From: Phorcus lineatus
Taxonomy: Eukaryota > Mollusca > Gastropoda > Trochida > Trochidae
DNA: 64,000 nucleotides
Reading direction: 5' to 3'
NCBI GenBank assembly: GCA_921293015.1
Contig: OV121098.1
Coordinates: 15,938,161 to 16,002,160, forward strand
The notes beneath the pieces are model-generated. The model was not told the DNA's origin. It saw only the letters and a list, made by a program, of their open reading frames with translations, and ran no database searches. Position 1 is the first letter of the stretch; each line of letters starts with the position of its first letter. The position numbers and the translations under genes are program-made. This document shows, one piece after another, positions 7,965-28,340 of the stretch.

Positions 7965-7972
7965 CTAGCTAC

Positions 7973-8402
7973 TAAGGGTGCGCGGTATTATCGGTATATC
8001 GGTATATTGCAATACAGGAAAAACACGATACCTGCCGGTACACTCTTCTGAAAACATCCTATATATCGGAAGTCATAAAATTTACAATTTCCATGTAAAA
8101 TTGCAGAGAAACGTGACAAGAAAAAAAGTGATTTTACCGAAAGTTGTAAACAATGTGTGAACTCGCCAGGTGAAAATAGCACAGACATGTTAAAAGTCCG
8201 AAACCAATCACTGAGTTATCTTACTTTACAAAACGATGGCCAGTGGAGCATTGATCACTGATATAATTACTGCTATTAAGTCAAGAGAGCATGCAAAAAC
8301 TGAAATATGAAAAGAACCAATACATTGCAATACGTATTGCAATACGCTTTTCTGTATCGCAATATATTGCAATACGAAAATAAGGAGCGATACCCATCCT
8401 TA
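7973..8402. mobile_element. hAT-like MITE, free copy (430 bp)
   Basis: Ends TAAGGGTGCGCGG and CCATCCTTA are inverted. The exact 8-bp duplication CTAGCTAC lies at 7965-7972 and 8403-8410. Subterminal ATTGCAATACGTATTGC palindromes are present. Short open frames inside are not genes. Confidence 0.92.
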
Positions 8403-8410
8403 CTAGCTAC

Positions 8411-11862: not shown

Positions 11863-11866
11863 TTAA

Positions 11867-14085
11867 CCCTTAAGATGCGGGTCCCGGGCCTGTCCAGGTT
11901 GAAATTTGCTTTGACCGCATATAAGCGAAAATAAGCGTTAAAATCACTCAATTTTCCCCCCACTCCCCGCCGCACGTGCTAATAGCCTGTGGGCACTTTC
12001 TCCCCGCTCGCACGAGCTTACCGTCCCGCGCGTGCTATCGTTTGCTTACAAGCCTGCACTCACACCAAACGCACAACCTTATATCGCACGCCCTATGCTC
12101 TGAACCCTTGGGCTGATTTCAATACCGGTTGGATCATTTGAAAGAGCAGAAAATTGTCTTCAATTCAATATAAAATACGTAACTACGCTACCTGAATTGA
12201 AGATACAGCATGTGCCGCAAAAAAGGTGATTTTTACATATTTTTAGTTTTACCATTTTGTCACACCAATTTTTACATGATGTGCTCAACGTATTTTGACA
12301 ATTTTTATATCATAAGACAGAGAGAAAGATTGTCTTTCTTTCCATGTAAAATGTGTACATGCGCGATAATAAATAAAGACACAGCAAGCGCCGCACAAAA
12401 AGCTAATTTCTCGATTCAAATCATGTAAACTGAACGGCGATTTTGACATGTGCCTTTCTTTCGCTCATATCTTCTCAACAGCTAGGCGTATTTTGAAATT
12501 GATAACATCGTGATAAAGAAGGAATAATTGTCTTCGATTTGATATAAAAAAAAATTATATACACCATATAGAATAAAGATACAGCAAGTTCCGCAAAATT
12601 GTGACTTTTGTTTATTCTTTACGTTTTTACCATTTTCTCGCACTTTATATCACATAAACTTCTCGGTAGATTTTGCAATTTCATATATCAAAATATAGAG
12701 AAAAGGATAATCTTTATTGCCATGTAAAATTGGTATGTACAAGAAAATCAGAAAGGACCCGGCGCGCATCGCACAAACAGGCAATTTCTCTATTCATATT
12801 TTGTTTACCGAGAAGCGATTTATTTTCAACTGCTTTTTACACTTCCTATCCATTTAACGGCAGAGCGCATTATCGACATTTTTATATCACAATAAAGAGG
12901 AAAGGATCGTCTTCAATTCTATATAAAATTTGCAAATTACAATTAGACAATAAAGGAGCAGTTAGTGATGTCGCAATTATCAAAATCTGTTCTAAAATAC
13001 CCGAGGGTACCATCTTTGCAAACTTTATATATTCCAAACCAAGTGGTACATATTTATTATTTTCATATCATCGTAAAGCAGAAAGAAATACCTTCATTTT
13101 CATGTGTAATTTGCCCATATTTGCATCAAAATAAAACGTGTGGAAACGATGCGACATATGTTGCGGTAAGGCGATTATCAAAGACTTAATTACTAGCTAT
13201 ACCCACGTTTCGTTGGTAATAACTTCTAATTACAGTGCAAAAGATTGTTATGATTTATTTCTTCGTAAAGAAGAATAAATTGCCTTCAATTCCATATATA
13301 ATTTGCATGTATACAAAGCGAATAACATGATTTATAAAGTTGGAAATAAAGACAATTTATATTGTGTGTGAGTGTATGTTTCAACGGGGATACCCCGCCT
13401 GCACGCACTGAGCGCGTGCGTTTGGCCGGGGCTATTAGCTTAGTAATATTACTGTGGGGGTCAGAACGTTATCGGGATTTATCACTACCCTGTTTTCGTA
13501 ATTTGTATCTTTCGTTTAGGATGGCGTATCGTAATAAAATTTATCGTGAAATATAGAGCAAAACATTAGCTTCAATTCCATATATAATTTGCATGTGTGC
13601 ACTCGGTGATTAAATGATTTTATAATGTTTGAAATGAAGACAATTTTTAAAATTTTGTAAAATTCGTTCTAAACATATTATAAAAATGATTTTTATATCG
13701 ATGTGAAGAGGAACTATTCATCTTTAGTTTCGTTTTGATTTCGCGCATGCGCTCTTGGAATTTATTGAGTTACGGCGCCCGAATTGAAAACAAGTTTACT
13801 TCAGTTGTAGAAACCGTTCCAGGGGTGATAGAAATTTCATTCAAAGTGTCAAGTAAGTATCATCCATTTGTAACACGGGATTCGCCGACTAGCTTTGTAT
13901 AAAACGACGATAATGTCCGTAATTCGCCATGTAAACACGCCATATGTTGTTAAAACGGTCGCATCTGGCGGCGCTGGAAAATTCGGCCACTGGGGCTAAT
14001 TGCGCTATAACGGTAGCGAGGCGAGTGCTGGAAAATTCAGCCACGGGGGCAAAACTGGTCAAAATAATATTCAGCAACGTAAGAG
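11867..14085. mobile_element. Non-autonomous piggyBac relative (2219 bp)
   Basis: Flanked by TTAA at 11863-11866 and 14086-14089. The left end begins CCCTTAAGATGCGGG like the complete element, and about 100 bp at the right end match it nearly base for base (CAGCCACGGGGGCAAAACTG). No transposase is present. The middle is a run of about eight diverged direct modules of 180-200 bp of the same kind as in the complete element. A 153-codon open frame at 12673-13134 falls across these modules and is not a gene. Confidence 0.9.
12120..13600 (+). repeat. ~190-bp module array in the non-autonomous piggyBac
   Basis: A landmark like ATTGTCTTCAATTCCATATA recurs near 12150, 12328, 12526, 12706, 12906, 13086, 13277 and 13567. 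It is usually followed by an ATGCGC-like motif and AATAAAGA. The spacing is mostly 180-200 bp, and divergence is high. Confidence 0.75.
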
Positions 14086-14099
14086 TTAAGTAACTTTAA

Positions 14100-14275
14100 G
14101 AACTGACAAAGGTTTAGTCTATTCAGTGATCACAGTGATTAGAGAAACAGACAATTTTTTTATGTTCTATCTATTCTTTTTTCATAAACTGTAGAGAATC
14201 GGGATACGTATAGTATCGTAACCATGGTATGTTGATGATAATCGTCTTGCAGGTTCATTGGCCATACTTCAATGA
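14100..14275. repeat. Fragment of the 39.8-40.35 kb MITE family, inverted
   Basis: AGAATCGGGATACGTAT and GATGATAATCGTCTTGCAGG match, in reverse complement, the left half of the element at 39805-40350. Both ends are missing. Confidence 0.65.
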
Positions 14276-16939
14276 CATATAACCTTGCCAAAAAAATTGA
14301 ATCAGGACACATCGTGTCGACACTAAGGCCACGATACACAGCTCCACTAATTAGGGTAAACGTTCATCAGGATTCGAATGAGCAATCTGCAATGCTGGAT
14401 TCAAGTATAGCAATGTTAAGTATATGAAATGTGACTCCCTTACAAGGCTTGCATCGTTACTCTTAAGCCACTTCCTGCACGTGGACCCAGCATACAAATT
14501 TCCCATAATTACCTTGGTAATGTTCCACTTCCTGTCCCCAACACTTACGATCTAGCCCTCAGCTTCAAATCATTATAACTGTACTTTACCCTTTTCCTTG
14601 ACTCTGTGAACTGACAACTTAACCTATAACCTGCTGAACTGATGTCATGATGAAGCCGTGTCATTATAATCATGTTTCTTTCTACAATACAGGGGTTAAA
14701 AATATCTTTTCAGAGTTCCAAGTCACTTTCTTTTTGATGAAGTTTTAGGACTGTCAAATTAAGAATTTGGTACGACTATGTGGATGAACTCTGATGAATA
14801 TAAACTATGTCATTGTGAAAGAAAAGATATCATGGATAGAAACCTCTTCACCCGAAGAAGTAGTCTGTAGGCCAGACCCTGAAATAAGTAAGAAGCCTAA
14901 GCAAGTCTATGAAAGACTCAAGAGCTTAATTCCAGTCTCCTTTTCATTTCATTTAATATTTTTTTTAAATTTTCATTAACTGATACATTTTCATTTCAGA
15001 GTCTAATTGTTAGACTACCGAAGAAGAGGCAAGCAGAGTTGTTCCCATGTGATCAACCTAGAGGGTCATTTTGGTGTATTCTGAGCAATGGTGAAATCCT
15101 ATGATTTAAAATTCCAAATGACGCCATGCCATAAGGGTAGGCAAATTTCACTCGGACCCTCTCTAGGTACAACACTAGGCAAGGAATAGCCCAGGAAAGG
15201 TGTGACCTACAATAAAGAGAGTTTGCTATCAATAATATTTTGTCTTTCTTTCTGCCTCTAAAGAACCTTTTGTCAATGCTGTTCCTGGATGGGGGCCCAA
15301 AGGCAACTTGCAAAATTGGGGTTGCTTGCCGATCTTTGATTCATTTTAATTCATTACAACTGGTTGTCTTTTCATCATAAAAGCCAGTTACTCAAATAAG
15401 AAAAGAGCACTAATTACAGGTACTGATGATGAAAGAAGATGGTCACTTCACTTGCAAAAGGTAAAACAAAACAGAATTGAAAAACAATGCACAGTATTGT
15501 GTAAGTGATGACAGCTGAAGAAGAATCGCAGATATCAGGAAATAGCTGATCAAGTTTCTTGAAGAGTACAGGAAAATAAAGAGCCATTGGCTCTGTAGCT
15601 CATCATGCTATCTTTCATTTATATTAGCTGCCATAGCATCACCAAATCCATTTATTATAATCCTCACTAGTTGAGGAGTTGGTACACAAGATTTTAGGTT
15701 TCTAGGCCTTTTACTTTTGGAAGTACACAAAAAAGGATTTTAGGGTGTGGCCTCTGTGGGTAGGTGAGCCATGGTCTCTGTAGCTCATCAGCCTTTGTAG
15801 TGTTGATTTTCAAGACTAAGATATACAACTGTTAGTTCTCTAGGTTAAAAATCACCAAAATGTTCATCTGTCAGTGAATAAGAAAAGAAAGCTCAACACA
15901 AAATTGGAAGAAAATCGAAAAAAACATCATTTTATCATGTTACAAAATAGATTCTTTTAGAAAAATAGGCAGAATCTATATTTTAATTCATTTATTCGTC
16001 CTATATGTGCTCTCTTACATTTTGTAGAAAAACTCTCTTTAAACACTAAAGGCATTTTAAAAAGGCTAAAATCAGGCTTTAAGTGAACATATCATTTCTT
16101 AACATCATCCTACCTCCATCTTTTGAATCCACTTTCTTTCTATCCATCACAAAGTTACATCAAGCAAACCCCTGCCAATATGTAGGGAAATTACGAGGTT
16201 ACAATCTGCTTGTCCCTGGTGACTGTGATCCCATCAGCTGTTAGTAAAAAATTCAACTTTCGGATTGCAGTAGTTTTGGAAAAGAAGTTGAAAATGTGAA
16301 AAGCTGACAGACGACGCCCAACTGACAATGGACAACAAGCCATGCCATAAGCCCATCTGACCTTAAGGTCTGAAGAGCTCGAATTTATTTGTAGAATTTT
16401 ATGTAGGCATCGGTCTAAAGTAATATCTAATTCCAAATGATGAAACTACCATCCTACAACTTGATTTCAATTGAAACAAACTTAATTTCAAATTCAACAT
16501 GTATTGAAAACCTAAATTTTCATAGTTAACCGAAATGGGATATCATTAATTGACTTGTGTTGTCAGTTTGATATGCATGTCAAAAATGGGAGAAGTAACC
16601 GAGAAAAATGGCAAATATATATTCAGCGCACCTCAGGGCTGCAGTGTCATCTACTATTATGTCATCAGGCATTTTGAATAATGTTAAATCCTTCATTGTT
16701 CACTAGTTGCTGCTGAAACTTTATCAAACCATATGCCCATCACAACAACCTAAAGTGTACCAACTGATAGTGACACAACACCAAAGTCATGCATGTGCTC
16801 CAGCATGATCTTACTTGTGTGACATGTGACATGGGAAATCCAAAATGTGATGCATTAAAGACTGCCTTGAAATGCAAAATCACTGGATATTGGTAACTTT
16901 TAAAGCACATAACATAATGAAGGAGTTCATCTTCTAACC
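14276..16939. other. No supported gene; dispersed repeat near 15.6 kb
   Basis: 15575-15800 holds a copy of the repeat with GTAGCTCATCA and CACCAAATCCATTTATTATA phrases also seen at 47-48, 57 and 60-61 kb. A frame at 14794-14979 has fairly coding-like composition but no splice or family support. Confidence 0.4.
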
Positions 16940-17313
16940 TCTACCCTAAAAGATTCACTAAGACACTAACCGATTCACTTACCGATTCACTATCCAATTT
17001 ACTAACCGATTCACTAACCGAGTCACTAACCAATTCACTCACCGATTCACTCATCGATTCACTTATCGGTTAACTATGACGATAACCAATTCACTGATCC
17101 ACTGAATGATTCACTAACCGATTCCCTTACAGAAACACCAGGGATTGGGAAACTGGGGGCCCCGGCCATAGGCCATTTTGCACATTGGATGAAGAAATGG
17201 CCCATTCAAATTAGAAATTGTACCATTTCTACCAAGGGGAATTGCCCATTCAAAATTCTGAACACTAACTAACTCACTACCTAATTCACTAACCAATTCT
17301 CTTACATATTCAC
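16940..17313. repeat. 12-bp minisatellite, left part
   Basis: Degenerate tandem CACTAACCGATT units, interrupted at about 17133-17255 by a dispersed repeat containing GGGATTGGGAAA. The array resumes at 24184, beyond the nested transposons. Confidence 0.85.
17133..17255. repeat. Dispersed repeat with GGGATTGGGAAA end
   Basis: Shares GGGATTGGGAAA, an AATGGCCCATTCAAATT-like centre and CCAAGGGGAATTG with 25440-25625, where the centre lies inverted. It is inserted within the 12-bp minisatellite. Non-coding. Confidence 0.6.
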
Positions 17314-17999
17314 TAAGGATGGGTATCGGTCCTCATTTCCATATCGCAATATATTGCGATACAGAAAAGCGTATTGCAATACGTATTGCAATATATTGGT
17401 ACTTTTCATATTTTAGTTTTTCAATGTTCTCTTGACTAAATAACAGCAATTATTACAGTGATCAATGCTCAACTGGACGTCATTTTGCAAAGAGAGATAA
17501 TTAACCCTTAAGATGCGGGTCCCGGAATATTCCGGGATGAAATTAGCTTTGCCCGCAAGTCCTCTTAGCGGGATGCGAGTAGCACACTCTATTTTTCTCA
17601 CGCTAACTAATTATGACCGCGGGTCTCGGTAGCGGGTCCCGGAAATTTATTGCCTAGCAGTAGTCTCAGTTCAACGCTTGTATTTTCGTTCCGGCTGCCG
17701 CTAAGCTACCGTGTTTTGTTTCGTTGGTGGTCTAAATAATGCGCGAACATGCTCCGAAAGTTATGAGAATATTGATAATGTTTATCGTACCGAAAATAAG
17801 CGTTAAAATCACTCAATTTTCCCCCACTCCCCGCCGCACGTGCTAATAGCCTGTGGGCACTTTCTAGCCTCTCGCACGAGCTTACCGACCCGCGCGTGCT
17901 ATCGTTTACTGAGACGCGTGCATTTTGACCCTATGCACGCCTTCCTATCGCACGCCCTATGTTCTGAACCCTTGGGCGGATTTCAATATAGGTGGGATC

Positions 18000-19010
18000 A
18001 TTTGAAAGAGAAAAAAATGTCTTTAATTCGATGTAAAAAACATATGTGCGCCTCGTGAAATAAAGATACCACATGTGCCGCAAAAAAGGTGATTTTTATA
18101 TATTTTTAGTTTTACACTGTTTTGTCACACCAATTTTCTCATGATGTGCTCAACATATTTTGACATTTTTTATATCAAAAGATAGAGAAAAAGATTGTCT
18201 TTAATCCCATGTAAAATGTGTACATGCGCAACAATTCATAAAGATACAGCAAGCGCCGCACAAAAAGGTAATTTTGCCGACTTCCTTATCATGTGATCTG
18301 AAGCGCGATTTTCATGTGCCTTTCTTTCACAATGAATTTCTTTTACACCGTGAAAAAGATTTTGTTGAATTTTACATCACTATAAAGACAAATGAATTGT
18401 CTCTAATTCCCTATATCAATTATTATGCGCGCAAATAAATAAAGACTCAACAAGTGCCGTAAAAAGAACAACTTTCGCACTTCGCAATTCCGTTAGTGAC
18501 GCAAATAGGGAAACTTTGGCACTTCATATCCCCGTGTACAAATGACACATTTCAAAACCATTTATATCATTATCAAGAGGAATAAATTGTCTACAAAGTG
18601 ATATATAAAATGTACATGCGCTAAAACAAACGACGATGCAGCAAGCGCCGCACAAAGGGTTCTTTTCATGTGATCTGAAGTTCGATTTTCATGTACCTTT
18701 CTTTGCATATTTGGCACTCGATATTTTCTATACCACTTGGCGGATTTTGATAAATATTACGTCTAAATAAAGACGGAACGTTGTTCTTCATTTCAATATA
18801 TTGATCATACATGCGCACACAAAAATAAAGGCACAAGAAGTGCCGCAAATTTGGCAAGTTTCGCATTTCGTATTTCTGTAACAAAGTGGCGCGCTCAACA
18901 ACGTTTGGTATCAGCGTAAAGAGCAGAAAATTCTCTTCAATTTGATATACAATTTGTTTATGCGCTCATAGAAATAAAGACTCAACAAGCGCCGCTAAAA
19001 TGTTATAAAT
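18000..19010 (+). repeat. ~190-bp module array, left flank of transposase
   Basis: Same modules as in the 2.2-kb relative, with landmarks near 18016, 18194, 18398, 18588, 18780 and 18930. Several carry ACAGCAAGCGCCGCAC after AATAAAGA. Confidence 0.75.
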
Positions 19011-19161
19011 AAATGTAATAAGTAAAAAAAATTATGAAGGAAACCCTGTTTCTTTAGTGTTCAATTATAGAGTTTTATAAACCATGAAAGTTGAAGGAAA
19101 AAAACCTTTTGGATTTACATTCATAGCGTTATTGATGTCTTTTTTGAGTTAGGGGATTTTT

Positions 19162-19430
19162 GCGTCGGGCACCGCCATCAGTTCATGGGAAAATTGTCCA
19201 ACAAAAATGTTGTGGTTGAGACACAGTATGTCGGGGATGCCGTCGGGGACCGCCATCAGGTCAAGGCAAAGTTGTCCAACGAAAATGTTTGTGGTTGAGA
19301 CACAATATGTCGGGGATCTTTCGCCGGGCACCGCCATCAGGTCATGAGAAAATGTGTCCAACGAAAATGTTCGTGTTCGAGAAAAAAAATTTCAGCAGAC
19401 TTTCGTCGGGCACCGCCAGCAGGTATGTGT
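19162..19430. repeat. 78-82-bp tandem repeat inside the piggyBac
   Basis: Four units starting with CGTCGGGCACCGCCATCAGG; ACCGCCA recurs at 19171, 19249, 19330 and 19412. Units continue with TTGTCCAACGAAAATGTT. Open frames here on both strands are by-products of the repeat. The next 500 bp carry scattered TTGTCCGAAAG and GTCCGGC motifs. Confidence 0.85.
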
Positions 19431-20180
19431 TTTTTTCTGCCAAATTTTTGTTGGTCGAGGAAACTCTTTTTTGAAAAAAAAGTTTGGTAGCATTCCGATG
19501 TTTTAAATAATTTGCTATATATGTCGGGATGGCATGAGTTCCTTCCAGTGAACTAAAGACAAGGGGCCGGGTGCTCGTTGACTACGGCCGTCCCGACGGA
19601 TAGGCCCGTGGAACCTATCATTCTCGGAAGAGAAGTCAAAAGTTGAAAAACTTTTGTAATCCACAACTGACAATCAGAACTTTCCTGACGTAGAAGGCAG
19701 TTGTTCGCGACTCGCCGGCTCGTTGCATAGGAGTCAGAAGGCGGCATCAGGGTTGATAATGTTGATACAACGTCGGCGGCCGTCGGTGCCATCGGCACCT
19801 TCGGCGGGATTGTGAAAAGTCGTCCAAAAGTTAGAAAGTGTCCGGCGACATTAGAACTTGTTCGGCTGGATTGTGAAAAGTTGTCCGAAAGTTTGAAATT
19901 GTCCAGCAATGTTAGAATTTGTCCTGATTTGTTATTTTTGCAAATCGTGAAACAAAATGTCCGGCTTTCGCCAGGACAATTAGAAAATGTCCGGATTATT
20001 GATGACCGCTGGCGCCAAAGGCGCGCAACGGCAAATTTGTTTCAAACACTTACAAAATGTGGCAATTGAATGTCCATGAAGCTCACATTGAATTTCTCTG
20101 TACAAAAGGTCATGTGTTGATGTTATTATATCTTGCGTGTGCCTAAATTATTTTCAATCATTTACAGATTGATGTGAAAG

Positions 20181-22175
20181 ATGCCTAAGGCCAGGAGGCC
20201 GCGAACCAGGAGTTGGGAAGGTCCGTCAACGTCTAGCGACGACGACTTCATCAACGAGGTCCATGCCGATGAAGCTTCTGATATGGAATCAACTGATGAG
20301 AGTGATAGTGACAGTGACAGTGACAGTGATAGTGAAAGTGACATTGATAGTGATCAAGAAATAAGAAACATTGCAAGAGACATATTAGCTGGTACGGGTG
20401 AAACTGCTACGGCTGGTACTTCCACAGAGGAAGAGTTCAGTGGCTTTGACGAGCAATATAATGAAATGGACACACATTTTGATGACCAAGATAATTTTAT
20501 GGATCGCTGGGAAGAGGGGCAGAGGCAACGTGGACGTGTCGACTTGCATTTTACTGGCGCAACGGGATTAGGACGGTTTATAGAATTGCCTGATAACCCG
20601 CAACCTGTAGACTTTTTCGGACTGTTTTTTCATGAAGATGATTATGGATCATTGGCAGCAGAAACCAACAGATACTTCCACCAACAGGTCGATGATAAGG
20701 TTCTGAAACCCTGTTCACGGTTGAGGCACTGGTATGATACGAATGCCGAAGAAATGAAAGTATTCATTGCAATGACAATAGCAATGTCTCTGGTTGTACA
20801 GAGAAACTTTTCTGAGTATTGGTCAACAAGTGATGTTACGTCGACGCCCTTCTTTTCCAAGTGCATGCCCCGCGACAGGTTCTGGCTACTGCTAACGTAT
20901 CTACATTTGAATGATAACAACCTAATGCCGGGACGAAACACTCCGCATTTTTCACCAATGAATAAACTTGGCTATCTGTACCAACGCATCGTGCATCGTT
21001 TTTCCAGAGTTTATAAGCCGCATCAAAACATTTGTGTTGACGAAGGGTTGGTGCCTTGGAAAGGCAATCTGAGTTTCAAAGTATATAATCCCGACAAGCC
21101 GAAGAAGTATGGGATAAAGGCCTACATGTTGTGCGACTCAACAAATGGTTATGTTTGCAAGTTCAAACTCTACACTGGAAAAACAAATGAAGCTGTTTCT
21201 GTTGGTGGGAAAACGTATGATCTCGTCATGGACTTGGTGAAGGAATATGCTGGGAAAGGGTATCATGTGTTCATGGACAATTTCTATTCCTCGGTGGCAT
21301 TGTATATAAACTTGTGGGAAATGGGAACTGGTGCGACGGGAACTTTGAGAGGAAATCGCAAAGGCATTCCTGAAAAGCTAAAGAAGGCACAGAAGAATCA
21401 GAAGAAAGGGGATATGACAATCTATCACAATCAAGACCTACTCGTTTTGCGGTATGAGGACAGGAAGTCAGTGTTGCTCATGTCAACCGTAGAAGACGCC
21501 GAAATTGTAGAGACAGGAAAGAAGAACCGAGTGACTGGGGAAGCAAATACGAGACCACGTATTGTGCACGAATACAACAAATATATGGGAGGTGTGGATC
21601 GGGCCGACCAGATGCTGTCGTACACCCCGTTCAAAATGAAAACTCTTAAATGGTGGAAGCGTGTGTGGTTTCATGTGTTGAACGTTGCCATGTTGAATTC
21701 TTACATTATCTATAAAGAATTCTCAGAAGACAAACCTTTGAAAACAAGCCGTCAATTTAGAAAAGATTTGGTGCAGCATATGATCACCTTCGCCGAAACA
21801 GAAAAAGTGCCCTCCCTGCGCAGACGTCCTCGCGGCCGGCCGAGCACGAGCGACGATAGTGTCTTGCGACTCCATGATCGTCACTTTCCATCAAAGATTC
21901 AGCCTGTTGGAAAGAAGAAAAACCTAACACGCATGTGTGTTGTTTGCTCCAAAGCGAATAGAGAACTTCGTCGAAGGGAATTCGAAGAAACAAATCAGCC
22001 AGTTCGAAAGAAGAAAAGGGTAGGCAAAGAATCTTCTTTCGAATGTATCGAGTGTAATGTGGCTCTATGTGCAGCACCATGTTTCAGAATTTATCACACG
22101 TCACAAGATTGCACTAAAGCTTATATCAGTTTGATGTCAGAGAAGGAAAATGAGGGGGATAATCAAGAAGATTGA
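20181..22175 (+). CDS. piggyBac transposase (664 aa), intact
   Basis: Cut-and-paste transposase that excises and inserts at TTAA. Residues 1-120 are acidic and low-complexity, with a run of DS dipeptides. The DDE_Tnp_1_7-type core follows. The catalytic aspartates are visible as Asp287 (ICVDEGLVPWKG), Asp366 (VFMDNFYSS) and Asp473/Asp476 (GGVDRADQM), matching the D268/D346/D447 triad of the moth enzyme. The C-terminus is a cysteine-rich domain with Cys586, 589, 622, 625, 630, 634 and His639, which in the family binds the transposon end. The frame is unbroken and the length is slightly above the usual 550-600, because of the acidic N-terminus. A TTTACAG just upstream of the ATG could be the acceptor of a leader intron. 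With TTAA ends present, the element may be or recently have been autonomous. Confidence 0.97.
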   Translation: MPKARRPRTRSWEGPSTSSDDDFINEVHADEASDMESTDESDSDSDSDSDSESDIDSDQEIRNIARDILAGTGETATAGTSTEEEFSGFDEQYNEMDTHFDDQDNFMDRWEEGQRQRGRVDLHFTGATGLGRFIELPDNPQPVDFFGLFFHEDDYGSLAAETNRYFHQQVDDKVLKPCSRLRHWYDTNAEEMKVFIAMTIAMSLVVQRNFSEYWSTSDVTSTPFFSKCMPRDRFWLLLTYLHLNDNNLMPGRNTPHFSPMNKLGYLYQRIVHRFSRVYKPHQNICVDEGLVPWKGNLSFKVYNPDKPKKYGIKAYMLCDSTNGYVCKFKLYTGKTNEAVSVGGKTYDLVMDLVKEYAGKGYHVFMDNFYSSVALYINLWEMGTGATGTLRGNRKGIPEKLKKAQKNQKKGDMTIYHNQDLLVLRYEDRKSVLLMSTVEDAEIVETGKKNRVTGEANTRPRIVHEYNKYMGGVDRADQMLSYTPFKMKTLKWWKRVWFHVLNVAMLNSYIIYKEFSEDKPLKTSRQFRKDLVQHMITFAETEKVPSLRRRPRGRPSTSDDSVLRLHDRHFPSKIQPVGKKKNLTRMCVVCSKANRELRRREFEETNQPVRKKKRVGKESSFECIECNVALCAAPCFRIYHTSQDCTKAYISLMSEKENEGDNQED

Positions 22176-22369
22176 AGAAAGAAGAAAGAAGCAGAAGTGT
22201 GGATGAGCGTTACTCTCCTTATAAAGTTTATTCTTCACATCAATAAGGTGAATAAGTGTAATATAAAATACTGATTGTCAATAACATAATCTTTTTTTTA
22301 AGTCGTAAAAGAGACAGAGAAAGTCAATGTGAGCTGTCACTGGACGTTCGATACGAGCCGCATCACGAA

Positions 22370-23640
22370 CCTACCCCCGATCTTTCGCAATTTGTTTTCT
22401 TAGAATCGGGTGGCGAAACTTCATACTTTTTACATCATCGTAAAGGGAAAAGAACTGGCTTTGATTCATTATGAAATGTGTATGTGCGCAACACATAATA
22501 AAGAAGCGGCAAATAATGCGAGAAATGTCGCAATTATCAATTTTTTTCCCCAAATGTCTGAGGGTACCCCTCTTTAACGGTTCATATCTCCCGAACTATT
22601 TGGCACTTTTTAAATTTTTTTCCACCTTTCTCAAGCGGAAAGAATGATCTTTAATTCCATGTATAATATGCATGTGCGCAATTAATAAAAATGGTGCGGC
22701 GAGTGCTGCGACAAATGTCGCAAATAAAACGATTGTCAAAATCTATTTTCAAGTAGTTGAGGGTGTCGCTCTTTCGCGGTTCATATCTCCCGAACTATTT
22801 TATACTTTTTTATATTTTTTTCACCTATTTCAAGGGAATATAATTGTTTTTAATTCCATGTATAATATGCATATGCGCAGTCAATAATAACGATGCGGTG
22901 GATGATGCGACTGGTGTCGCAAATAGAACGCTTATCAAAATTTGTTTTCAAGTAGTTGAGGGTATCACTCTTTCGTTTTTCATATCTTTTGAACCAGTTG
23001 GCACCTTTTCATTATTTTTTCACAGTCGTAAGGACGAAAGATTTATCTTTATTTCCATGTATAATTTGTACATGCGCAGCAAGAAATAACGATGCGGCGT
23101 GCGTATAGAATGATTGATTTTATTATCTCGGAATATTTGCCCGCGTGTGACTGCACGCGCCGAGAGGATCGGTACAGCAGGAAGCAACGCTGGTGCTTAG
23201 AACACTGGCACTCGCATGCTGGTGCCTCGGGGGTGCCCCGGGGGTATAACGGTACTAATTAGCGTACCGATGCCAGACTGCCCAAGGGAGAATTAGTTCT
23301 GGCTAAAAATCCCGTTATGTCGGAGCATCCTCGGGGTACCCCCAACCATCTTTCGCGGCGTATATCTTTTGAACAGGGTGACATTTTCTAACAATCTTTT
23401 ATCATCATAAAGAAGAATAAATTGTCTACAATTCCATATATAATACATGTATGCGCGCTAAGTATTAGGGATTTTATTCAGCCGGAAATAAAGACAATCT
23501 TTAGATAATTGTAGAAATCTAACTAGAGGTCGCATTGTAAAAAGATATATATCATCGTAAAGAGGAATAATGTATCTTCAATTCCATATAAAAAAATTAA
23601 TTGTGCGATTATATTTAAGGATTTTCCGTAACTCTAAATA
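22370..23640 (+). repeat. ~190-bp module array, right flank of transposase
   Basis: Modules with landmarks near 22455, 22645, 22843, 23043, 23418 and 23570, in the same orientation as on the left. They share TTCATATCTCCCGAACTATT and CATGTATAATATGCATG. Confidence 0.75.
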
Positions 23641-24183
23641 AAGACAATCTTCATATTGCAATAGAAACCGTTCTAGGTAGGATAAAAATTTCATTCAAAG
23701 TGTCGGATAAAGATCGTTCATTTGTGTACGGGATTGGCGGGCTACTTTTGTATCGAACGGTCAGTTTCATCCGTAATCCGCCATGTGAATACACCATTTA
23801 TCGAAAAAACAGCCGCGACTCGCGGTGCGAAATAATTCAGCCACAGGGGCTAATTGCGTTATTACCGTAGCGAGGCGAGTGCTGGAAAATTCAGCCACGG
23901 GGGCAAAACTGGTCAAAATAATATTCAGCAACGGAAGGGTTAAGTGACTGGTTTCGTATTTCAACATGTCTGTGCTAATTCTACTTTGCACGTTCACCTT
24001 TGTTTACAACTTTCAGTAAAATCATATGGTATTTTTGTAACGTTTTTTCTGCAATTTTACACGAAAAAAAGTTTATTTTAAAACTTCCGATATATCAGAT
24101 ATTTTCAGAAGACTGTACCGGTACGTATCGTGATGTTTCTGTATTGCAATATACCGATATACCGATAATACTGCGCATCCTTA

Positions 24184-24330
24184 ATATTCACTGACAGATT
24201 TGCTAACAGATTCATTTACCAATTCACTAACAGATTCACCAACAGATCCACTAACAGATCCACTGACAGATCCACTAACAGATCCACTAACAGATCCACT
24301 AACTAATCCACTGACCAATTCAAGCATATC
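24184..24330. repeat. 12-bp minisatellite, right part
   Basis: Continuation of the array with a shifted consensus, CACTAACAGATC. The first eight bases are the target duplication of the inserted MITE. Confidence 0.85.
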
Positions 24331-24479
24331 AATAAAACATAAGAAGAATAAATAACACAGACATCAACTTTAGTCAATCTATTTGGTTTGATAGAACTTG
24401 CAATAAGATGTATTGACTTCAATATTTCAAAAACCTATTTAATCCAGATATGGAGAGTGACTCCACATTTAACAAATGT

Positions 24480-24803
24480 GCAAAACTGTATTCAGGAAAA
24501 AACTCTTCAGATTGTGATGTCTGTGCAATGATCGCAGGTAAAATTAGAGAGCATGATGTTAAAAAAACAGTTAAAGAATTAAATTATTGGACATCACCAT
24601 GACATGATGATCTGCCACGAAAAACATTTAAACATCACTTTGATGTTATTCTACCATATATATGTGTTTCCTGTTTACACTATATATTCAAGACTGGATA
24701 TCCTCCCCAAGCCTGAAATCAAGGACTGATAACAACTATCTTTAAAAAAGGATGCAGATCAGATTCTTGTAACTGTTACTGTATGACAATAACTCCATTG
24801 TAA
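24480..24803 (+). pseudogene. Dead LINE reverse-transcriptase fragment
   Basis: One frame reads through non-LTR reverse-transcriptase landmarks: KKTVKELNYWTSP, HDDLPRKTFKHH, HYIFKTGYPPQA and NQGLITTIFKKG, then the start of the NYR-type region. It is broken by TGA at 24600-24602 and 24714-24716 and TAA at 24801. The family pattern (LKNxKSPGxDGIP...WxxGxIxPIxKKG) makes the assignment clear. The clade (CR1/L2/RTE-like) is not determined. No promoter or 3' tail seen. Confidence 0.8.
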
Positions 24804-24811
24804 TTTGCAAA

Positions 24812-25439
24812 TTTTTCAAATCACTCAGTGTTTCCGTTATCCAAAATCGGGTCATAGTACCTTAAAAAGAAGTCTGTCTGGTACTTGAAAAGGCTGTCGG
24901 ACATCATGTCGGATAACAAAAAGTTTTCAACTAAAATATGTCACCAAGCAATCTAACAATCTTCGGAAAACTAACATTTGCTTTAAATAGATCGCAATCA
25001 TGAATTTTGCAAGATATAATCATTCGAATGTTATGTTAACTATCTAACTCACGATATTTTCTGAACAATTCTGAATTCAAACACGTACACATTCGGATAA
25101 CTTAAGCTGGATATGCTGTTTTTGGTGACAATGGTTTTGTTCACTGTCTACAGAAATTAGCGCTATTTCTCAATCTATTCTGATTTTAAACACATCATAA
25201 AATGAAGAAGCAGAAAAAACTTGTCAAACTAATACGGGGGGAAATGTAGTACCCTTACTGGGAAATGAAAGTCTGACAATAAGGTTGTTTAGATTAGATG
25301 AATGTGAAGTGCTTTGAGCATCATTTGGATGGACTATGGCGCATAATAAGTACCCATTTATTATTATTATTATCTTTCGATAAAAGTAAATTTATTGTTT
25401 TCAATCATGGAGGTAAAAATGGTTAATAGAAGTAAACCT
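24812..25439. other. No gene seen
   Basis: AT-rich with a short (ATT)n tract near 25360; no coding signal beyond the LINE relic. Confidence 0.4.
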
Positions 25440-25625
25440 ATTACAGGGATTGGGAAAGACACCTTTAATAATTGGCCATTTAAAGGGATTTTAGTCATTT
25501 TCAGGATTTTCAATGAGCCATTCCCCTTAGCAGCAATGGTAAAATTTCAAATTTGAATGGGCCATTTTTTCCATCTAATGTGCAAAATTGCCCATGGCCC
25601 CTGCCTTTCCCAATCAATTCCTATA
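25440..25625. repeat. Dispersed repeat, second copy, inverted ends
   Basis: Starts CAGGGATTGGGAAAG and ends CTTTCCCAATCAATTCCT, so it has inverted ends. Its centre matches 17133-17255. Non-autonomous, class uncertain. Confidence 0.6.
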
Positions 25626-25904
25626 GAGGTTCAGTCATACATACATATACATACAAATACCTAAGTATAGTTTTTTCATACAAGTAGCATGTTTTCTTTC
25701 AAGTATGTATCTATTCAGTATCACTCAGATCTGAAAGAAGTGCAAGAAAAGTACTTAAAAGGTATTTTACCAATTTTTAGCAAAAGCTTTTCAATGTTTT
25801 AAGTTGCAGAATCTTATGCAGAATTAGGTCAAATGGGGTGTCTAAAATCTACCCTGTAATTCTTAATTTTCCAAAGCCAGAATCCAGGAGTGAGGGACAG
25901 GTAA

Positions 25905-26111
25905 ACCGAAATCAAAGAGCATTTCGCCTTCTGTCACTCTTTGGGCCAAATCGCAGAAGATTTCAAGCTTTACAGTGACAACTATGCACATAGATTTGAA
26001 GCTAAGTACAGTTGGAGGTTGAAGCGATATATCAAGATGTCATGTAAAAATGATGTTAAAGTTTCCACTCTTGATGAGATGAAACATAGTTATCAAATGC
26101 CTGTTCGTTGA
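25905..26111 (+). other. Possible orphan coding stretch (68 codons)
   Basis: Open from a TAA at 25902 to TGA at 26109-26111, without ATG at its start. The middle reads HSLGQIAEDFKLYSD then RFEAKYSWRLKRYIKM, with coding-like codon choice. It could be a terminal exon or a transposon remnant. I do not recognise it, and no good acceptor opens this frame. Confidence 0.25.
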
Positions 26112-26729
26112 CCCTGAGCGCCATTTTGTTAGACTGAAATTGAGGCTATGAGGTGGCTAGTTGATAATTTTGGATGATATGTGTTCCATTCCACATGCTT
26201 TTGTCACCGATTTGAGCGCTTTGTTTCAATTGCAAGTGATTTATCGTGAATCGTCTGTTTGTGCCACCTTTGCTTCCTGTTGGTAGGGTATGAATTCAGT
26301 TTTGGAGGGTTTGTATTCCTAGTTTGGTGATTTGTGTTCTGTTTTAGTGGTGATCTATAAGTATTGAATTTTGAAGATTTTTTGTAGTTTTCAGATAGTT
26401 TAATAATAGTTATAAAGGACCATTAATGACAATGGTAGAAATTTAATGGATCAAAAGGTACAAGAGATCACCTCATTAATGATCCTTTTCATTTAATAAT
26501 TGAAATTATTTAGATGACAGCTCTTTGTTTACAAATCTTTTATAATCTTTATTACAGAATCTTAAGCAAAATTAATAAAAAGGCTCAAAAAAATAATAAA
26601 TGCGACAAATGCAAACAATCTGTTAAAATTGAAATATTTCTCTTATAAAAATAACACTTTTGACAATGATGCCAACAGGTGCTATTGTCTGTAAGAATGT
26701 AAACAACAGGTTCATGAAAAGACACTCAC

Positions 26730-27271
26730 TTGTCCCCGAAAGATCGCTTCCACCAATCAGCTGCGTCGCTTTTGGTAATCCTAAATGTTTCCCCCGAGAA
26801 AGTCGCAGATGGAGGAGGGTAGATCGCTTTTAATTCGGCAAGCATGTGGGAGAACACAAGAGAAAGCTTGGTAAGGTTTCGTCTAAAATGAGAGTTTTCG
26901 TCGAATATTTTGTCGCGTCCCTCGCGAAAGAGTTTTATAGTGTTCTTGCACTTACTCATTAAATTTTCGATGAATATTCTGAAATATTCACACTCGCTCA
27001 GAGTCTGCTGTTTGTCGTCGTGCTTTGAGCAGATGACTCGTAGATGTTGATAAGTGTCAGGCAAAATGTCCAAAATGAAAGGGGGGCTGTTCCGTAAATT
27101 CATCCGTGACTGTTGGCACAGTTTCACTACCTTGTCCATCATTTTCCATGATTTTTCGATTGTTCGTTTATCCACGACTACGATTTTGGGAGGGGCTAAA
27201 GCTTCCTGAATGCGGCTAAACACGTTTCCAAAATTCTTGCCTTGATTTCGACCCTTATTGCTCACCGCCAT
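26730..27271 (-). CDS. CBL-family E3 ubiquitin ligase, first coding exon
   Basis: CBL proteins bind phosphotyrosine on activated receptor tyrosine kinases through an N-terminal TKB domain and ubiquitinate them. This exon codes the N-terminus and most of the four-helix part of the TKB domain. Recognisable family stretches are [39 protein letters not shown] and [12 protein letters not shown]. The exon ends at 26730 with donor GTGAGT, splitting a Lys codon AA|G, where CBL continues into the EF-hand part. I chose the ATG at 27269-27271 because its context is strong (AAAATGG) and the length fits CBL. An in-frame ATG at 27371-27373 would add 34 basic residues. The exons for the EF-hand, SH2, RING and tail were not found. 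They should lie at lower coordinates, beyond a large intron that would contain the nested transposons, or outside the window. Confidence 0.9.
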
Positions 27272-27373
27272 TTTGTCCTTCCTGGTCTGAACCAGAGTCG
27301 ACGGGCTACGGTGGATTTCCGCCGTACTGCATCGACTGAGGTAGACTTTTCTACGGAGATCCGTCAGTGCCAA
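27272..27373 (-). other. Possible CBL 5' UTR or N-terminal extension
   Basis: The reading frame stays open for 34 codons upstream of the preferred start, with its own ATG at 27371-27373. The encoded stretch is unlike known CBL N-termini and is probably leader sequence. Confidence 0.4.
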
Positions 27374-27885
27374 ATTATGTAGGTTTTTATCCGCACTGTC
27401 TGAGAGTTTGACTGGTTCCTGGTGGCTTTTTCTTGTTTGTTTTCTTTCGTGAATAGGTACATTAATTTGAACAGTGATAAGATATTGTATTAAAAGTGTT
27501 AATTAGCCATCTCGGGACTTTGTTGGCATTATTTGGCTTTAATATTTGTGTCAAAATGCCAATGTTGAAGAATTTCAGTCTAAACATATCATATATTCAT
27601 CTATTTGAACAAATACATGACAAATATTAGGTTTAAATAAAGATTGAACATCACCCATATTTATGTCCAAATGCTTAATTCACTTGTACCAGTTTTATAT
27701 GAGGTCGTCGTTAAAGATTTTACTTGATTTTGAAAACCCTGCAGGTAAAAATATTCCTACTTTTAAAACTTATTTCAAAGGCCTGACCAAAATTGGATTA
27801 TGTTAAGCGTACTATGACCAATAAGGATTGAAGATTGTAATTTTTTTAATTTTTCCCAAAACATTATAGCGACCGTATGGCCAGT
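27374..27885. other. Upstream of CBL exon; no gene seen
   Basis: Would hold the CBL leader and promoter if the first coding exon is also the first exon. No TATA-like motif can be supported. Confidence 0.35.
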
Positions 27886-28340
27886 ATGATCTTTTATCAT
27901 CCAAAACTGTGTTCCACAGGAGATATCGCTTGTGGAAGATCAAGCGATATCTCCTAGGAGATATCGTTTTGACAGTAGATTTTGAACAATGCCCTATTAC
28001 AGTCAAGTTCATGACATCACAATTGTTTTACATCATCAAGTAATGACATCACAATGCTATGACGTCATAAACATGATGACGTCACAATGCTATGACATCA
28101 CTCCACTGAGAGTCTTAAGAGTAGTGCAGTGTTCAGAAAAACAAATTTTTCACTGAATTGAAATGAAAAATGATTTTGGATGATAAATAGAATCTCACCC
28201 TCGTGTCTTCTGATATCAAATATATCAACACTCGTTGATAAAAGTAAAATATCCTCGTCAAGCCTCGGCTATTTGTAACTTTTATCAACTCGTGTTGATA
28301 TATTTGATATCAGAAGACACTTGGGTGAGATTCTCTATAT
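27886..28340 (+). mobile_element. Foldback element with CRE-like motifs, copy 1
   Basis: Starts with a small hairpin around GATATCGCTTGTGGAAGATC and GCGATATCTCCTAGGAGATA. Then come five palindromic octamers: TGACATCA at 28012, 28044 and 28093, and TGACGTCA at 28060 and 28077. It ends in a long hairpin with 56-bp arms at 28190-28245 and 28278-28333, near-identical when inverted. About 330 bp align with the reverse complement of 50100-50375. Non-coding. Confidence 0.8.

Follow-up and report, generated by a model that had tools for sequence, protein, structure and literature searches.

Transposons of the piggyBac superfamily, among them the piggyBac of Trichoplusia ni and piggyBat, insert at TTAA, have ends beginning with CCC and encode, in a single uninterrupted open reading frame (ORF), a transposase with a DDE_Tnp_1_7 domain and a triad of aspartates. 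Miniature inverted-repeat transposable elements (MITEs) of the hAT superfamily are flanked by 8-bp target duplications, and nTnnnnAn is given as the hAT target (PMC3878927). Tandem repeats which are born in transposable elements, ORF2 of long interspersed nuclear elements (LINEs) included, are known as well (PMC9659126). Here we analyze a locus of the gastropod Phorcus lineatus at which a decayed LINE contains a 12-bp minisatellite, the minisatellite is interrupted by a hAT-type MITE and by a dispersed repeat of 122 bp, and the MITE is interrupted by a complete piggyBac. The window, that is, the whole stretch of 64,000 nucleotides that was analyzed, comprises positions 15,938,161 to 16,002,160 of the forward strand of contig OV121098.1 (assembly GCA_921293015.1), and positions are counted from its first letter. 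The nest is genuine, and we put at about 0.9 the probability that it records a layered history at a single locus: first the LINE, then the array, then the 122-bp repeat and the MITE, and finally the piggyBac. The first-pass annotation had observed a nest of three levels, built in the order array, MITE, piggyBac. The observation is confirmed and this order is still the simplest reading. It is, however, incomplete, as the minisatellite is not the base of the nest but lies within the decayed LINE, and the 122-bp repeat has to be placed in the array as well.

The minisatellite is about 29 units long and lies on the plus strand in three parts, a left part (16964-17138), a middle part (17261-17313) and a right part (24184-24312). 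A repeat finder detects tandem repeats with 12-bp units at 16964-17063, 17263-17316 and 24186-24312. The middle part ends in the octamer ATATTCAC (17306-17313) and the right part begins with an exact second copy of it (24184-24191); both lie directly outside the ends of the MITE. By arithmetic an 8-base word is expected about once in a 64-kb window. This word occurs three times on the plus strand, with the third instance at position 26984, and the other two abut the MITE. Furthermore, with one ATATTCAC taken out, the array on the left of the MITE predicts phase 5 on the right, which is the phase observed; with both kept it would predict 1, and the two sides would disagree. Thus, the MITE does sit inside the minisatellite, as had been proposed, with the 12-bp register restored once the insertion and one duplicate are taken out.

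The MITE, read on the plus strand, is made up of a 5′ part ending in TTAA (17314-17504) and a 3′ part which follows a second TTAA (together 23940-24183). Joining 17314-17504 to 23944-24183 gives an element of 431 bp. A free copy of the same family, 430 bp long, lies on the minus strand at 7973-8402 and is flanked by its own exact duplication CTAGCTAC (7965-7972 and 8403-8410). A poor alignment between the rejoined MITE and this free copy would have spoken against the nest. Instead 365 of 433 columns are identical (5 gap columns; 85.3% of the ungapped columns), and the alignment score is 579, whereas none of 100 shuffles exceeded -9. Other genomic copies are closer still, namely L002 (97.9%), L003 (97.2%), L005, L006 and L008 (96.5% each), L007 (96.4%) and L004 (95.9%). 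To the closest of them, L002, the 5′ part is identical in 190 of 191 columns and the 3′ part, counted from 23944, in 232 of 241 columns with one gap column. Exact 8-bp duplications flank all nine copies examined (the nested copy, the free copy of the window and L002-L008); counted by eye, T is found at position 2 in eight of the nine and A at position 7 also in eight. Both ends of the MITE read TAAGGATG, with A2 and G5 in the terminal inverted repeats, which is typical for hAT elements. In the nTnnnnAn-type duplications, in ends with TAAGG and in the length of about 430 bp the family resembles hAT MITEs, and judging by this end structure the previously suggested label hAT-like would be appropriate. 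At another place of the genome (G000:C15:17690189-17690522) two matches to the 5′ half of the MITE (query 1-191 and 1-143) lie head to tail, perhaps a tandem or nested MITE.

The piggyBac element occupies 17505-23939 on the plus strand (6,435 bp) and is flanked by TTAA on both sides (17501-17504 and 23940-23943). The interval 17314-24183 measures 6,870 bp, and subtracting 6,439 bp leaves the 431 bp of the MITE, next to 430 bp for the free copy; the arithmetic of the first-pass annotation is thus correct. Seven of the eight free MITE copies examined have an uninterrupted TTAA at the piggyBac site, where L002-L008 read TTAAGTGAC. These seven are the best matches to a MITE query which itself ended in TTAA and are therefore a favorable sample. 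Matched on its own, the exact uninterrupted MITE word at the piggyBac site is found 116 times genome-wide, and the reversed-pattern control not at all. With TTAA at both ends and these paralogous empty sites, the insertion of a complete piggyBac into the MITE stands as described.

The transposase gene of the element (20181-22175, plus strand) is intact and encodes 664 amino acids. The protein matches PF13843 (DDE_Tnp_1_7) with E = 2.2e-92 and 310.5 bits (cut-off 22.4), and its structural relatives are piggyBat (9c0f, E = 7.4e-72) and 6x67 (E = 1.6e-41), presumably the piggyBac of Trichoplusia ni. The motifs CVDEG, FMDNF and GGVDR align to both structures and place aspartates at residues 287, 366 and 473, which we take to be the piggyBac catalytic triad. 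For the cysteine-rich zinc-binding domain of the C-terminus the model PF13842 gives 20.9 bits, short of its cut-off of 24, and C-x2-C motifs are present at 586 and 622. The element shares with known members of the superfamily the TTAA target, the DDE_Tnp_1_7 domain, the aspartate triad, the CCC ends and the uninterrupted ORF. It differs from them in its length of 6.4 kb, in its short terminal inverted repeat (CCCTT is identical, the remainder imperfect) and in the arrays of related repeats of about 190-200 bp which flank the gene on both sides. The left array consists of degenerate repeats (17997-19011, plus strand; families D1, D2, D5, D6 and D14), and the right array (22428-23606, plus strand; families D1-D4, period 199) is related to it. 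Among the literature matches listed, no named element is tied to this piggyBac, and we do not claim that it is unpublished. In a search for viral carriers of the transposase one stretch matched a pattern and none was confirmed.

Beneath the array we find the decayed LINE, all pieces of it on the plus strand. Its nearest relative, L102, aligns to the window left and right of the array, over 15456-25710. On the left there is an ORF1-side fragment (15456-15576; 79.5% to L102 593-714, E = 2e-24) and an endonuclease-side piece which runs into the array (16384-16961; 618 columns aligned with L102 1395-1993, 71.8% identity, E = 4e-91). On the right the LINE resumes at 24375-24774, where 24406-24774 is 74.5% identical to L102 (E = 6e-63) and the 27 bp at 24375-24401 match weakly (E = 0.001). 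Further pieces are found at 25380-25415 (91.7%, E = 1e-8) and 25652-25710 (78.3%, E = 5e-7); some of the small pieces are weak. Since L102 carries an endonuclease (Exo_endo_phos_2, PF14529, 29.3 bits, cut-off 27.4) and a reverse transcriptase (RVT_1, 55.8 and 72.2 bits), the outermost element is a LINE. The copy in the window has many stops in the three frames translated. L102 also has an ORF1-like frame (3-851) with the sequence GSVEPNPGP, which we take to resemble the 2A-type motif of other LINEs.

At the point collinear with the array L102 reads CTAACAGATTCACTAACTGATGCA, which contains an in-frame seed of two 12-bp units, CTAACAGATTCA CTAACTGATGCA. This seed agrees with our chosen unit word in 20 of 21 bases and is the best 21-mer of L102 (median 9). 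The word was picked after the seed had been seen, and the test was repeated with three units from the repeat finder; these match the seed in 18-19 of 21 bases and any other place of L102 in at most 14. In a control stretch of 32.4 kb outside the nest (27601-60000) the two units tested reach at most 15 of 21. At the protein level the doubling LTDSLTD is absent at the corresponding stretch of all eight more distant LINE relatives inspected, which were hand-picked from 150 matches and of which L106 and L107 are near-identical. Because the array sits exactly where L102 has the two-unit seed, the minisatellite most likely grew out of the LINE coding sequence. An array unrelated to the LINE, inserted there or formed by chance, would be compatible with the seed being seen in L102 alone and with the left and right array units differing somewhat. 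However, the LINE enters the array on the left and continues on the right, and the match of 18-20 of 21 bases at this very point contrasts with at most 14 elsewhere; we regard such an unrelated origin as improbable. The LINE cases among the repeats of PMC9659126 are satellite DNAs, and there as here the unit of the array matches LINE coding sequence. What sets this locus apart from those LINE cases is that two LINE copies, one with the array and one with the seed, can be held against each other at the same collinear point.

The first-pass annotation missed a second interruption of the array. A dispersed repeat of 122 bp (17139-17260) is flanked on both sides by AACAC, with one copy at 17134-17138 closing the left part of the array, and removing the repeat together with one AACAC again restores the 12-bp register. 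Other copies are found at no fewer than 39 places of the genome, at least, with 85-89% identity over most of the length, and a further relative lies in the window at 25502-25615 (81.5%). Three of the genomic copies (L048-L050) have the same left edge and continue past the right edge, so the copy in the window is probably truncated. Perhaps the repeat is a 5′-truncated retroelement in reverse orientation.

We suggest that the nest was built in the following steps. The LINE would have inserted first and then decayed. Replication slippage or unequal exchange would then presumably have enlarged its in-frame two-unit seed to roughly 29 units. The 122-bp repeat and the hAT-type MITE would have entered the array next, either of them first, the MITE thereby duplicating ATATTCAC; the 122-bp repeat must be younger than the array because it sits inside it. 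Finally, the complete piggyBac would have gone into the MITE at TTAA by cut-and-paste. Identity to relatives rises with the depth of nesting, from 72-75% for the two main pieces of the LINE over 85-89% for the 122-bp repeat to up to 97.9% for the MITE. In the innermost layer, the piggyBac of the window, we count nine singletons in 2,997 non-coding bp, that is, about 0.3% private change. This series agrees with the order LINE, array, MITE, piggyBac deduced from the nesting.

It is conceivable that the MITE received the piggyBac at another place and that the loaded MITE then jumped into the array as one unit of 6.87 kb. Since the MITE keeps both ends intact, a hAT transposase could in principle move it with its load. 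The order MITE then piggyBac would still stand, but the succession of array, MITE and piggyBac in place would fail. We consider such a joint jump unlikely. Eleven exact junctions of the MITE end GATAATTAA with a piggyBac end exist genome-wide, and MITE sequence adjoins only the one in the window. This search thus turned up neither a donor nor a sister copy of a MITE loaded at that site; the exact pattern would miss mutated loaded MITEs, and the donor of a cut-and-paste jump may be gone. In addition, the MITE is 2.1% away from its nearest examined relative, more than the 0.3% private change of the piggyBac. This fits an older MITE without proving that it resided in this array. From the same junctions we claim no target preference of piggyBac for the MITE, since only the window's own junction lies in a MITE. 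Finally, an assembly artefact which joined unrelated repeats, although the components of the nest are indeed repeated in the genome, is made very unlikely by the exact duplications at both levels, the restored 12-bp register and the LINE collinear across the nest.

Several points weigh against the proposed history, including the youth of its piggyBac family. The nest is known from a single assembled sequence, and when the left flank was searched against the genome for an orthologous or haplotype empty site, no second copy of the locus came up, only one full match (the locus itself) and three LINE relatives on contig C5 with 73-79% identity. The free MITE of the window reads CTCA at the piggyBac site and not TTAA. 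In the left array the repeat is degenerate from about 17064 to 17137, and the phase shifts internally. The seed rests on one relative, as L103 is deleted across this point and L104 ends short of it. Within the piggyBac family two of the 30 cores compared below, L023 and L024, are more divergent (126 and 184 substitutions), and the copies sampled are the best-scoring ones, which biases intactness and identity upward.

As judged from its copies, this family of piggyBac elements is young and has many members. A 30-mer of the transposase gene at the first catalytic aspartate occurs exactly 362 times (control 0), and the ends adjoining TTAA occur exactly 1,876 times (control 0). A survey of small animal genomes lists 188 of 212 piggyBac types with fewer than six intact copies (PMC10813416). 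Next to this part of the survey the family would be large, with the reservation that exact 30-mer matches are a different measure and that the host genome has 958 Mb. Out of 1,753 candidates of a first look 67 copies were scored. All of them span residues 1-664; 64 are without a stop and three have one TGA. Seventeen elements could be paired because each of their ends ranks in the top 40 of its side, left or right; all 17 have TTAA on both sides, with differing 20-bp flanks. Thirty cores, each about 5 kb long, all have an intact transposase ORF, and their median pairwise difference is 0.34% (largest 4.5%).

Leaving out L023 and L024, the mean rate of private changes over the remaining 28 cores is 0.0018 per site in the non-coding part on the left and 0.0012 in that on the right. 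The copy in the window, with six on the left and three on the right, has about twice this mean. If the neutral rate is 2e-9 per site and year, assumed as an order of magnitude, it would date back about 1.5 million years, and the sampled mean would lie under one million years. Subgroups share sets of substitutions, which suggests several source copies. Among the singletons in the ORF, again without L023 and L024, 14 are synonymous and 10 non-synonymous; the shared changes are 5 and 2. The ratio looks constrained, yet it is biased because the 30 cores were chosen as the best by protein score, and we draw nothing from it as to purifying selection. Among the matches listed, both the ends of piggyBac and the copies of its transposase seem to crowd together on contig C1 at 33-38 Mb and on contig C7 at 20-25 Mb; these clusters perhaps surround centromeres.

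Short derivatives accompany the full-length copies. The first 100 ends of the list all lie on contig C1 and include 33 adjacent pairs in facing orientation; 25 of these span 2,432-2,469 bp, three are of full length (6,421-6,437 bp) and five have other sizes. One short element from contig C37 (2,434 bp, L041/L046) was read. It is composed of 675 bp from the left and 1,707 bp from the right of the full element, about 99.5% identical, with about 50 bp unmatched in the middle, and keeps both ends. As it has no transposase, it would have to be moved by full-length copies. The other elements of about 2.45 kb are probably built alike and would likewise depend on full-length copies for mobility. The window holds, in addition, a relative of 2.2 kb at 11863-14089, with TTAA at 11863-11866 and 14086-14089 and no match to the transposase gene; its first 57 bp are 84% and its last 282 bp 80% identical to the full piggyBac.

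Some further features lie outside the nest. An ORF on the minus strand (26726-27502) has an N-terminal Cbl domain (PF02262, E = 1.9e-53, 180 bits), and the nest, on the downstream side of this ORF, is possibly located within a CBL intron. A scan of 14000-28000 for RNA families gave none at the gathering score. In the mitochondrial contig C74 (19.1 kb; L052/L053) we noticed a simple-repeat region of about 3 kb, several frames of which translate to (MY)n or (YM)n. The contig translates well under the invertebrate code, and its order of genes, read by eye, is similar to the ancestral order of molluscs.

In summary, the nest is a further example of a familiar kind and, taken by itself, a clean yet ordinary trace of insertions one after another. 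What it adds is that nesting, register and divergence are three signs from which the order of its layers can be read, and that the apparent birthplace of a minisatellite is visible inside a LINE gene. Moreover, its innermost element comes from what appears to be a very young piggyBac family of high copy number, and present-day activity of this family is plausible. We hold it slightly more probable than the opposite that a native piggyBac is mobile in Phorcus lineatus today, with several full-length lineages that would have a working transposase and a more numerous parasite of 2.45 kb, and that we may be looking at an invasion midway. The family could be tested for natural activity.

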